From the NCBI RefSeq assembly GCF_015482585.1, contig NZ_CP049742.1, forward strand, positions 198,501 to 262,500: a stretch of 64,000 nt of DNA, given 5' to 3'. Both the position numbers and the translations under genes were made by a program. Positions 806 through 58,597 of the stretch are shown here, one piece after another (the first letter of the stretch is position 1; every line of letters starts with the position of its first letter). The notes below the pieces were generated by a model. It did no database searches. It was not told the DNA's origin and was given only the letters and a program-made list of their open reading frames with translations. Source of the stretch: Mangrovibacillus cuniculi. GTDB lineage: Bacteria > Bacillota > Bacilli > Bacillales > R1DC41.

Positions 806-1405
806 CAAAAGCAAGAGAGCAAGGCGGCAAACGGCTTAAGTCGCCAAAGAGAGGAAGAGAGCAAGGCGGCAAACGGCTGAAGTCGCCAGGAGGAGCAAGA
901 GAGTAAGGCGGCAAACGGTTTAAGTCGCCAGAGAGATCAAGAGAGCAAGGCGACAAACGGTTTAAGTCGCCAGAGAGATCAAGAGAGCAAGGCGACAAAC
1001 GGCTTAAGTCGCCAGGAGGAGCAAGAGTACAAGGCGACAAACGGCTTAAGTCGCCAGGAAGAGCAAGAGAGCAAGGCGACAAACGGCTTAAGTCGCCAGG
1101 AAGAGCAAGAGTACAAGGCGACAAACGGCTTAAGTCGCCAAAGAGAGCAAGAGAGCAAGGCGACAAACGGCTTAAGTCGCCAGGAAGAGCAAGAGAGCAA
1201 GGCGACAAACGGCTTAAGTCGCCAGGAAGAGCAAGAGTACAAGGCGACAAACGGCTTAAGTCGCCAGGAGGAGCAAGTGTACAAGGCAACAAACGGCTTA
1301 AGTCGCTAGAGAGAGCAAGAGAGCAAGTCGGCAAACGGCTTAAGTCGCCAGGAGGAGCAAGAGAGCAAGTCGGCAAACGGCTTAAGTCGCCAGGAGGAAC
1401 AAGAG
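806..1405. repeat. Tandem array, 42-bp unit, about 14 copies
   Basis: Fourteen consecutive units of 42 bp, each with a core GGCGAC-11 bp-GTCGCC inverted repeat (arms vary to GGCGGC or GTCGGC) and an AGGAAGAGCAAGAGAG-like linker. Because 42 is a multiple of three, one frame stays open through most of the array and mimics a protein with a 14-residue repeat; there is no ribosome site and it should not be annotated as a gene. It lies between convergent gene ends (selO and the small membrane peptide). Confidence 0.95.
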
Positions 1406-2071
1406 TACAAGGTGGCAAGTCGTCAAAGCCGCAGAGAAGCGGAAGCAAGAGAAGGTACAAAAGCGCTTAAGCCGCATGGAAAAGGAAGAGCGCCATGCGG
1501 CAAGTCGTCAAAGTCGGGGAGAAGTGGAAGCAAGAAAGGGTACAAAAGCGCTTAAGCCGCAAGGAAAAGGAAGATCCCCATGCTGCAAGTCGGCAAAGCC
1601 GCCGAGAAGTGGAAGCAAGAAAGTGTACAAAAGCGCTTAAGCCGCAAGGAAAAGGAAGATCCCCATGCTGCAAGTCGGCAAAGCCGCCGAGAAGTGGAAG
1701 CAAGAAAGTGTACAAAAGCGCTTAAGCCGCAAGGAAAAGCAAGATCTCCATGCGGCAAGTCGTCAAAGCCGCCGAGAAGCGGAAGCAAGAAAGTGTACAA
1801 AAGCGCTTAAGCCGCAAGGAAAAGCAAGATCCCCATGCGGCAAGTCGTCAAAGCCGCCGAGAAGCGGAAGCAGGAAAGGGTACAAAAGCGCTTAAGCCGC
1901 CAGGAAAAGCAAGATCCCCATGCGGCAAGTCGGCAAAGCCGCCGAGAAGCGGAAGCAAGAAAGGGTACAAAAGCGCTTAAGCCGCAAGGAAAAGCAAGAT
2001 CTCCATGCGGCAAGTCGTCAAAGCCGCAGAGAAGCGGAAGCAAGAAAGGGTACAAAAGCGCTTAAGCCGCC
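1400..2071. repeat. Tandem array, 85-bp unit, about 8 copies
   Basis: Continuous with the preceding array. The landmark AAGCGCTTAAGCCGC recurs at 1461, 1546, 1631, 1716, 1801, 1886, 1971 and 2056, an exact 85-bp step. Each unit has two halves: the GCGCTTAAGCCGC half and a CCCATGCGGCAAGTCGTC half. The first half is shared with the array at 58.4 kb, the second with the array at 32.3 kb. The last unit ends one base before the stop codon of the minus-strand peptide gene. Confidence 0.95.
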
Positions 2072-17514: not shown

Positions 17515-17720
17515 GCGAGAAGGTAAGGTAGAGAGCAGTCAGCGGTGGAAGGCGGTCGTCAAAAGCGTTAGAAGGTGGGGTAGAGAGCCGTCAGTGGTGG
17601 GAGGCGGTCGTTAAAAGCGTCAGAAGGTGGGTTAGAGAGCCGTCAGCGATGGGAGGCGGTCGTCAAAAGCGTGAGAATGCGGGATAGAGAGCCGTCAGCA
17701 CAGTTAGACGGTCGCCAAAA
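17515..17720. repeat. Tandem array, 52-bp unit, about 4 copies
   Basis: The landmark GAGAGC(C/A)GTCAG recurs at 17531, 17583, 17635 and 17687, an exact 52-bp step. Units contain facing CCGTC and GACGG-like arms (clearest in the last unit). The array fills the gap between the convergent ends of the sugar lipoprotein gene and the LysR gene. No other terminator was found there. Confidence 0.9.
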
Positions 17721-19868: not shown

Positions 19869-19972
19869 ATAACGTGCGCTCACGGAGGAGAGAATGCAGA
19901 GCAGAGCACACGTTAAAGAAATAACGTGCGCTCACGTAGAAGGGAAGGCAGAGCAGAGCACACGTTATTCCC
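19869..19972. repeat. Two tandem 52-bp units
   Basis: ATAACGTGCGCTCACG begins at 19869 and again at 19921. Each unit has outer arms AACGTG and CACGTT. A shortened single unit is present at 50059. It lies between convergent gene ends, as the other arrays often do. Confidence 0.9.
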
Positions 19973-28818: not shown

Positions 28819-28930
28819 AAGGTACATTCAAAATACGAATGTACCTTTTTTGTGTTGTTTTTGTATTAAATTATTTCAAAATACGAATGTACCTTTTTTG
28901 TGTTGTTTTTGTATTAAATTATTTCAAAAT
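28819..28930. repeat. Terminator hairpin with a 48-bp tandem duplication
   Basis: AAGGTACATT pairs with AATGTACCTT and a T-run follows. The stretch beginning TTCAAAATACGAATGTACC at 28827 is repeated at 28875 (48-bp step) with the start of a third at 28923. The second copy has lost the left arm, so only the first can terminate. It lies behind the DUF5667 gene. Confidence 0.85.
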
Positions 28931-31739: not shown

Positions 31740-32475
31740 ACCGGCATGGAGGAAGCGGGACCGAGGCGATAAAAGGGATAAGTCGCCATGTCAGGAGTGG
31801 GACCGAGGCGACAAAAGGGTTAAGTCGCCATGGTAGGAGTGGAAGCGAGGGGACAAAAGGGTTAAGTCGCCATTGGGGAGTGGAAGCGGGGCGACAAAAG
31901 GGTTAAGTCGCCATGACAGGAATGGAAGTGAGGCGGCAAAAGGGTTAAGTCGCCATGGTAGAAGTGGAAGCGAGGCGACAAAAGGCTTAAGCCGCCATGG
32001 GGGAAGCGGGACCGAGGCGACAAAAGGGTAAAGTCGCCATGGCAGGAGTGGAAGCGAGGCGGCAAAAGGGTTAAGTCGCCATGCCAGGAGTGGAAGCGAG
32101 GCGACAAAAGGGTAAAGTCGCCATTGGGGGAGTGGAAGTGAGGCGACAAACGGGATAAGTCGCCATGGCAGGAGTGGGACCGAGGCGACAAAAGGGTTAA
32201 GTCGCCATGACAGGAATGGAAGTGAGGCGACAAATGGCTTAAGCCGCCGAGAAAACAGCGTGCCCCATGCGGCAAGTCGGAGAAGCCGGGGAGAAAGCAG
32301 CGTGCCCCATGCGGCAAGTCGTAGAAGCCGCCGAGAAAACAGAGTGCCCCATGCGGCAAGTCGCCAAAGCCGCCGAGAAATCAGCGTGCCCCATACGGCA
32401 AGTCGTCAAAGCCGCGGAAAAAGCAGCATGCGCCATACGGCAAGTCATAGAAGTCGCCAAAGCCGCCATCCGAGA
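31740..32475. repeat. Tandem array, 42-bp units in two subfamilies
   Basis: The first part (to about 32245) has about 12 units with GGCGAC-AAAAGGGTTAA-GTCGCC cores and a CATGGCAGGAGTGGAAGCGA-type linker. The second part (about 32245-32475) has five 42-bp units of the CCCCATGCGGCAAGTCG type seen in the 85-bp array at 1.4-2.1 kb. It lies directly behind the cadCA terminator and ends about 60 bp before the next ribosome site. Long reading frames through it are artefacts of the unit length being a multiple of three. Confidence 0.95.
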
Positions 32476-35563: not shown

Positions 35564-35591
35564 GAAAGAAACGTCACAACTACATATTTTT

Positions 35592-35750
35592 ACCACTAGG
35601 GGGGCCTATACAATAGGCTGAGATGAGCGTGTTACGCAAAGACCCTTTGAACCTGATCTAGTTCATACTAGCGGAGGGAAGTGGGCGAGTCGTTCAATGT
35701 GTTTATTATTTATTGACCTTCTAACGCCACTTCCATTGGGAGTGGCTTTT
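35592..35750 (+). ncRNA. TPP riboswitch with transcription terminator
   Basis: The THI-box conserved parts are present: CTGAGATGA near 35618, ACCCTTTGAACCTGATCTAG (35643-35662) and GCGGAGGGAA. P1 pairs CCACT (35593-35597) with AGTGG (35680-35684). A terminator (GCCACTTCC / GGGAGTGGC plus T-run, 35726-35752) follows. GGAAGTGG (35677-35684), part of P1, can pair instead with CCACTTCC (35727-35734), an 8-bp antiterminator. When TPP binds, P1 holds and the operon is shut off. Confidence 0.95.
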
Positions 35751-47440: not shown

Positions 47441-47470
47441 TGTGCGCTTATAAACTTGTGAAGGAGGACT

Positions 47471-48192
47471 CTATACTCATCTGGAGCGGTGAAAAGTGAT
47501 GTGAGAAGAGTATAGGAGGGTTCTATACTCATCTGGAGCGGTGAAATGTGTCATGAGGAGAGAATAGAAGGGCTCTATACTCATCTGGAGTGATGAAAAG
47601 TGATGTGAGAAGAGTATAGGAGGGTTCTATACTCATCTGGAGCGGTGAAATGTGTCGCGAGGAGAGTATAGAAGGGCTCTATACTCATCTGGAGTGATGA
47701 AATGTTCATGAGGAGAGAATAAGAAGATCCTAAACTCATGAAGGAGCGTAAAATCGCCAGCTAGGAGAGAATAAGAGGCTCTTAAACTCATGAAGGAGCG
47801 TAAAATCGCCAGCTAGGAGAGAATAAGAGGCTCTTAAACTCGCGAAGGAGCGGAAAATCGCCAACTAGGAGAGAATAAGAGTCTCTTAAACTCACGAAGG
47901 AGCGTAAAATCGCCAGCTAGGAGAGAATAGGAGCCTCTTAAACTCACGAAGGAGCGTAAAATCCCTAGCTAGGAGAGAATAAGAGTCTCTAAAACTCATG
48001 AAGGAGCGTAAAATCGCCAGCTAGGAGAGAATAAGAGGCTTTTAAACTCATGAAGGAGCGTAAAATCTATCGCTAGGAGAGAATAAGAGGCACTTAAACT
48101 CACGAAGGAGCGTAAAATCCATCGCTAGGAGAGAATAAGAGTCTCTTAAACTCATGAAGGAGCGGAAAATCGATCGCTAGGAGAGAATAAGA
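47471..48192. repeat. Tandem array, 52-bp units in two subfamilies
   Basis: Subfamily 1: CTATACTCATCTGGAG recurs at 47471, 47523, 47575, 47627 and 47679; units 1 and 3, and 2 and 4, are most alike (a 104-bp higher-order period). Arms CTATACTC/GAGTATAG face each other. Subfamily 2: TAAACTCATGAAGGAGCG-type units recur nine times from 47731 to 48147, again every 52 bp, with CTCTTA/TAAGAG arms. Both subfamilies keep exactly the same length although the sequences differ. Confidence 0.95.
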
Positions 48193-48323
48193 GGGAGAAA
48201 GTCATCCAGTGCCCCTCAATCCACTAGAGATCCCCACCAACAAATGCAGGTCTTCACAAACTATTGGGAAAATGGGTAGACATCTATGCAAAAGTAATCG
48301 CCTATTGTATAGTTAATCCAAAG

Positions 48324-58354: not shown

Positions 58355-58597
58355 TCTGTGCGGCTTAAGCGCTTAAGCCGCATGAAGAGAGAGAGAAAAG
58401 CCGGTACAAAAGCGCTTAAGCCGCATGAGGAGAGAGGGAAAAGTCTGCACAAAAGCGCTTAAGCCGCATGGGAAGAGAGGGGAATGCCTGCACAAAAGCG
58501 CTTAAGCCGCATGAGAAGAGAGTGGAATGCCTGCACAAAAACGCTTAAGCCGCATGAGGAGAGAGGGGGAAGTCTGCACAAAAGCGCTTAAGCCGCC
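58355..58597. repeat. Tandem array, 43-bp unit, 6 copies
   Basis: GCTTAAGCCG recurs at 58371, 58414, 58457, 58500, 58543 and 58586, an exact 43-bp step, with ACAAAAGCGCTTAAGCCGCA cores and a purine-rich GAGGAGAGAGGGAA linker. The core equals one half of the 85-bp units at 1.4-2.1 kb. It lies downstream of the minus-strand kinase gene. Confidence 0.95.

Follow-up and report, generated by a model that had tools for sequence, protein, structure and literature searches.

What is the 85-bp repeat array near the start of this stretch, and how did it come to share parts with arrays tens of kilobases away? The DNA that we analysed, called the window throughout, is the 64,000-bp stretch C1:198501-262500 of the 3.14-Mb chromosome of Mangrovibacillus cuniculi (NZ_CP049742.1, C1 below). 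An initial annotation had proposed that the 85-bp units are fusions of two modules that also occur separately, one as the core of a 43-bp array at 58.4 kb and the other as the core of 42-bp units at 32.25-32.47 kb, and that these arrays exchange modules.

The fusion was borne out. At 1414-2070 TRF reported a period of 85 bp (7.7 copies), at 58367-58596 one of 43 bp (5.3 copies) and at 32241-32458 one of 42 bp (5.2 copies); the 85-bp unit consists of a 42-bp module, B, joined to a 43-bp module, A. The module A 20-mer ACAAAAGCGCTTAAGCCGCA gave 8 matches with 85-bp spacing at 1457-2071 and 5 matches (0-1 mismatch) with 43-bp spacing at 58406-58597, with 0 in 100 shuffles. The module B 18-mer CCCATGCGGCAAGTCGTC gave 7 matches at 1492-2019 and 4 at 32264-32407, again with 0 in shuffles; each half was found at the separate site proposed for it. 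The B stretch common to the 85-mer and the 32-kb units is ~33 bp (CCCCATGCGGCAAGTCGTCAAAGCCGCCGAGAA), ~31/33 identical as judged by eye, and the linkers differ. A related third module, C (42 bp, GGCGACAAACGGCTTAAGTCGCC), lies directly upstream of the 85-bp array and also forms the initial block at 32 kb. The A array at 58 kb is + oriented, yet both of its neighbour genes are on the - strand.

Table 1. Repeat arrays of the window, in window coordinates.
Feature	Position	Strand	Remarks
Module C array, 14 units, 42 bp	810..1412	+	hairpin GGCGAC-AAACGGCTTAA-GTCGCC plus purine-rich linker
(BA)8 array, 85-bp dimer of B (42) and A (43)	1414..2071	+	
52-bp family I array (GACGGTCGTC...GAGGACCGTC)	17518..17699	+	convergent gene gap
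Family H, two 52-bp units (TAACGTGCGCTC...GAGCACACGTTA)	19869..19967	+	convergent gene gap
Module C array, 12 units, 42 bp	31762..32248	+	
Module B array, 42 bp, one half of the 85-mer standing alone	32241..32475	+	
Composite array, 52-bp sub-families D (CTATACTC...GAGAATAG) and E (TTAAACTC...GAGAATAA)	47465..48194	+	
Module A array, 6 units, 43 bp	58363..58597	+	opens with 22-bp palindrome GCGGCTTAAGCGCTTAAGCCGC

No array scored above the Rfam gathering score, in the window or in relatives; the only Rfam match in the window was a TPP riboswitch at 35588-35696. The window also holds, at 28827-28930, an AT-rich 48-bp exact direct repeat of 2.2 copies, which is of a different kind from the arrays.

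Genome-wide, the A core occurs in 123 copies (91 forward and 32 reverse, at <=2 mismatches), while the reversed control pattern occurs in none, and the possibility that the shared halves are short chance matches is therefore refuted. Module C has 151 copies, also with 0 for its reversed control, and no copy was found in 60 other genomes of the order. The 24 A/B/C loci that we sampled are block mosaics of the three modules: the 85-mer locus reads C14(BA)8, the 32-kb locus C12B4 and the 58-kb locus A6, and further strings read C7A15, A11C5, A(AB)5AC5 and B4C. Spacing between modules is fixed (C-C 42, A-A 43, A-B 41 and B-A 44), and blocks made of A, B or C alone, or of (AB)n, return in many combinations across loci. 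Because these block mosaics recur across the genome, the 85-mer is a tandem-amplified AB dimer, and the logic of the A/B mosaic is, by analogy, that of the higher-order repeats of satellite DNA. One C-module array lies ~1.2 kb from rho (C1:2477233-2478459).

We then placed these modules among the other arrays of the genome, using a sample of 1.04 Mb in stretches (~one third of the genome) together with whole-genome pattern searches. The sample contained 61 non-coding intergenic arrays, which fall by sequence into about nine families with the following unit lengths in bp: A/B/C, 42, 43 and 85; D/E, 52; F/G, 53; H, 52; I, 52; J, 41; K, 20-41; M, 20-40; and N, 52. Most units consist of two complementary arms, which could form a hairpin, and a purine-rich linker; clear arms were not apparent in the 20-bp families K and M. 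The purine content of the arrays is 0.662 vs 0.524 in other intergenic DNA, and linkers are 0.78-0.94 identical within an array. The only motifs common to the families were generic purine words such as AGAAG. Chi (AGCGG) occurred 113 times vs 69 expected and the SpoIIIE-like motif GAGAAGGG 12 times vs 2.4 expected; we rejected both as an explanation of the arrays, there being too few per unit. A similarity search found no such arrays on plasmids or phages, and a literature search found no paper describing them; PMC4666352 deals with intrastrand triplexes.

Two other repeated elements were met in this genome. A separate 123-124-bp tandem element (CTTACGCTTTTC...TCTAGCT.CAGGTGCGCAACCGCTCGG), which is not purine-rich, occurs in 2-4 copies at C1:84157, 328355, 443787 and 1371135, in orientations also consistent with replichore. 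A dispersed structured element at L054:4905-4974 (C1:33904-33973) matched RF01690 (Bacillaceae-1 RNA) on the opposite strand with 35.2 bits (gathering 35). BLAST found ~55 matches to this element within the sampled 1.04 Mb; it lies after gene terminators genome-wide, with ~12 copies <=150 bp from an array.

Similar arrays are present in relatives. Random 20-kb stretches from ~27 other genomes of the order contained unrelated arrays with unit lengths of 20-21, 41 and 52 bp, and one 52-bp family, here called the GGACA family (TGTCCTTCAT-7-ATGAAGGACAAAA and a 25-bp purine-rich linker), was present in 29/249 genomes and 17/106 genera. A single intergenic region of the relative G215 (L149:1238-2313) contains three adjacent 52-bp arrays that are unrelated.

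Unit lengths of the arrays sampled in M. cuniculi are only 20-21, 41-43 or 52-53 bp, that is, whole helical turns. In a list of 22 families, which was drawn up after the pattern had been seen and in which some 52-bp families possibly share ancestry or were met beside a 52-bp array, unit lengths fell at multiples of 10.5 bp with R=0.97 (Rayleigh p~1e-9), and among pitches of 6-20 bp, 10.5 bp gave the best R. Rare off-phase non-coding arrays (124 and 131 bp, and 48 bp with two copies) were left out of this test because they were >70 bp or had <3 copies. The arms are conserved as pairs: arm pairing of D/E, of F/G and of the GGACA family of relatives was better than in all 300 shuffles, and several pairs had changed on both sides, although the figure for covariation is inflated by related sequences. 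Inside single loci of relatives, the arms were swapped in full, from TTCAT/ATGAA to AATAG/CTATT (TGTCCTTCAT/ATGAAGGACA to TGTCCAATAG/CTATTGGACA). As single-stranded DNA, module C folded no better than shuffles, and hairpin stability did not differ clearly between strands.

The orientation of the arrays is tied to replication. GC skew alone puts the origin at about 2.6-2.7 Mb and the terminus at about 1.2 Mb; on this map, it is the leading strand that is purine-rich in 60/61 arrays (p=5e-17). The rule was held by all 7/7 arrays with both neighbour genes on the lagging strand, and polarity therefore does not follow transcription. Among the A-core copies listed, all were fork-consistent except one, which sits on a palindrome. 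Arrays thin out with distance from the origin, at 40 per 600 kb close to it as against 1 per 260 kb close to the terminus (p=7e-6). By crude ORF calls, which define gene gaps and flank directions here and below, arrays occupy 18% of convergent gaps vs ~5% of co-directional leading-strand and divergent gaps. In G117, a relative assembled as a single contig, the GGACA family was forward in 77/77 copies at 0.2-2.2 Mb and reverse in 35/35 at 3.2-4.3 Mb, with local GC skew matching orientation at every array sampled; arrays of G215 were mostly fork-consistent, with two loci against.

Comparison of relatives gave a view of array turnover. In the slot before mltG, G117 has 7 units and G005, whose MltG is 97% identical, has 4; G050 has none, and G145 carries a 51-bp purine-rich array that is equally oriented but of unrelated sequence. 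In G117, arrays at several distant loci are preceded by an 80-bp leader, more copies of which are found in G005. At one locus, the leader, array and trailer of G117 are absent from the orthologous site of G005, where ~580 bp are replaced by ~30 bp; the right edge is indistinct, and no clean target-site duplication was seen at this empty site. Leader and trailer of this cassette form only a partial inverted repeat, as judged by eye. A ~180-bp dispersed element beside arrays (L154:4188-4367 in G117) occurs at least 40 times in G117 and at least 40 times in G005, and in G117 it is mostly + before 2.3 Mb and - after.

In M. cuniculi itself, linkers of module C were 47% identical between loci vs 35% when shuffled, and the most similar pairs reached 95% (7 kb apart) and 84% (on opposite replichores). 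A comparison of flanks in this genome found no leader common to arrays beyond the array itself. As candidate flanks of a mobile unit it gave nothing but copies of the Bacillaceae-1 RNA and a single segmental duplication, which were rejected. The duplication, of 5 kb, joins C1:1-5000 and C1:381922-386943 at 99.5% identity; one copy stands at the contig start, and both carry the same B4C array. Copying between loci is likely because linkers are alike across loci and the cassette is missing from the G005 site. The proposed exchange of modules thus survives as probable copying between loci and not as a direct swap among the three arrays named, which are members of a genome-wide mosaic family.

The initial annotation had pointed to a REP-associated Y1 transposase as one possible agent, and the genome does encode a single Y1 transposase (C1:2436171-2436755, 195 aa, RAYT-like, with an HVH motif), directly beside an 85-bp A/B array. 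If this lone enzyme mobilised the hairpins as its REPs through lagging-strand DNA, fork polarity would be compatible with IS200/IS605-type transposition (PMC6006769), and the REP tandem arrays of Pseudomonas fluorescens SBW25 likewise take opposite orientations on the two replichores (PMC3116915). Against this, one enzyme would have to serve about nine unrelated families, and a gene lying next to an array is unremarkable when ~8% of gaps >=30 bp contain one. RAYT homologues were equally common in genomes with the 52-bp GGACA family (16/29) and without it (18/30, p=0.8), and the array-rich genomes G008, G064 and G215 had no homologue at E<=1e-15. GT[AG]G or CGTC tags numbered 0-0.6 per unit in most families, at no constant position, and only family I exceeded this, with 1.1 GT[AG]G per unit. 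Since homologues do not track the arrays and the tags are inconstant, the RAYT is not supported as a general mover; no enzyme could be tied to the arrays in this way, and we consider such mobilisation unlikely. The strand-lock could alternatively reflect termination, with arrays acting as polar Rho terminators on head-on antisense transcripts, long C-rich and G-poor RNAs that would hit the fork, and leaving co-directional transcripts unaffected. The genome encodes a full-length Rho, and the leading strand of the arrays has G at 0.327 and C at 0.195, which makes RNA transcribed head-on much richer in C than in G. Gaps whose right-hand gene is head-on in the leading-strand frame were also richer in arrays (27/183 vs 22/409, p=3e-4), but the cleanest contrast, that of (- -) with (+ +) gaps, was not significant (7/72 vs 16/297, p=0.18). 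Rho-polar termination is an attractive rival for the strand-lock; it leaves whole-turn unit lengths, conserved compensated arms and the scarcity near the terminus unexplained, and as an account of the arrays it seems improbable to us.

Two further explanations address the repeats themselves. Were the arrays neutral minisatellites, immobile and functionless slippage products tolerated in convergent gaps, one would expect what is seen at the mltG slot, where copy number differs between close species, as well as homogenised units within arrays and enrichment in convergent gaps, which have no promoters. Such products would not be expected to show a gene-independent strand-lock, quantised unit lengths with drifting linkers or compensated arms, nor does tolerance of slippage fit a 52-bp family that spans 29 genomes of 17 genera and a leader that is absent from the G005 orthologue; this reading is already disfavoured, and we give it a low probability. 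Intrinsically curved DNA, in which in-phase A-tracts would make bent scaffolds for nucleoid proteins, could account for whole-turn periods, and the linkers of the GGACA family have A-tracts ~10-11 bp apart. Pooled p was ~1e-4 for curvature, as predicted with wedge parameters, and for 10.4-bp AA/TT power, but the curvature signal is weak, is not shared by all families and owes part of its strength to long composite units. Straight DNA was predicted for families C, G, H and N, and curvature appears very unlikely to be the explanation.

The explanation that we favour, with a probability of roughly 0.55, is a joint one: these are satellite-like extragenic palindrome arrays that act like REP/BIME tandem clusters. 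It retains the whole-turn unit lengths, compensated arm changes, module mosaics, copy-number change and fork orientation that we observed, and it draws on the purine content of the arrays, the strand-lock, the R=0.97 spacing, the covarying arms and the absence of the cassette. Neither part would suffice by itself; single-stranded mobility alone would leave helical spacing unexplained, and duplex protein binding alone would leave fork polarity unexplained. Several results also weigh against this explanation: the lone Y1 transposase did not track the 52-bp family across genomes, no clean target-site duplication was seen, arrays of M. cuniculi had no common leader, and module C as single-stranded DNA folded no better than shuffles. 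We infer that arrays grow and are homogenised in place, in steps of one or two units, by replication slippage or unequal recombination, because modules come in blocks and copy number changes. Because of the strand-lock and the leader cassette, we suggest that arrays would also reach new intergenic positions by being copied in the form of leader-array cassettes, with polarity to the fork fixed, most simply by way of a single-stranded lagging-strand template exposing the purine-rich strand and hairpins. Finally, some putative factor may bind duplex arrays on one face, with selection holding the spacing, because helical phase stays constant while linkers drift freely.

A broader reading, which we put forward only tentatively, is that of an order-wide class of elements defined by design and not by sequence: fork-polar purine-rich arrays with whole-turn units and changeable but compensated arms, serving as one-faced protein scaffolds, excluded from the terminus region and arisen repeatedly from unrelated sequences. 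Its further suggestion that such scaffolds are tied to replication direction, through chromosome organisation or fork passage, is possible and equally tentative. Fork polarity, helical spacing and compensated arms constrain mechanism more than repeat lists do, and they recur across the order in unrelated sequences. If confirmed, the question becomes which factor reads whole helical turns and replication direction, and each genome would offer natural loci by the hundred for testing it, along with the empty sites of sister species. The arrays would also provide bacterial examples of satellite-like higher-order repeat evolution.

Among known systems, enterobacterial BIMEs combine two or three palindromic motifs, which alternate in orientation and are joined by linkers; they lie mainly downstream of genes and bind gyrase, IHF and Pol I. 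The A/B/C strings are mosaics of the same kind, in which distinct motifs alternate in orientation and linkers stand between them, although unit sequence and length are unrelated. Bacterial MITEs, bcr1 of Bacillus cereus among them, are like the arrays non-coding and dispersed, and the leader, array and trailer that are missing from the G005 orthologue may correspond to a MITE-like cassette; here, however, the body of the element is a tandem array of variable length, and no clean target-site duplication was found. In eukaryotic satellite higher-order repeats, monomer or multi-monomer units also multiply block by block and are kept alike inside each locus, whereas the present arrays are bacterial, intergenic, hundreds of bp long and fork-oriented. 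CRISPR arrays share regular palindromic repeats and constant-length linkers, but the linkers here are themselves repeated and are not unique spacers. As variable-copy tandem repeats (7 vs 4 units at the mltG slot), the arrays also behave as minisatellites, or VNTRs, and like REPs and REPINs they are extragenic palindromes or hairpins in many copies. The closest precedent is the REP tandem arrays of SBW25, whose GI-GIII arrays run forward at ~2 Mb and reverse at ~4 Mb (Bertels and Rainey, PMC3116915). There too, extragenic palindromes form alternating higher-order tandem arrays (GI-GIII, as compared with A-B here) that are opposite on the two sides of the chromosome. The SBW25 period is 184 bp, whereas ours are 20-53 (85) bp, with no consistent GTAG/CGTC tag and no tracking by a RAYT. 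Most families described here exist mainly as arrays, their fork polarity was tested on 61 loci, and the same design recurs in unrelated sequences.
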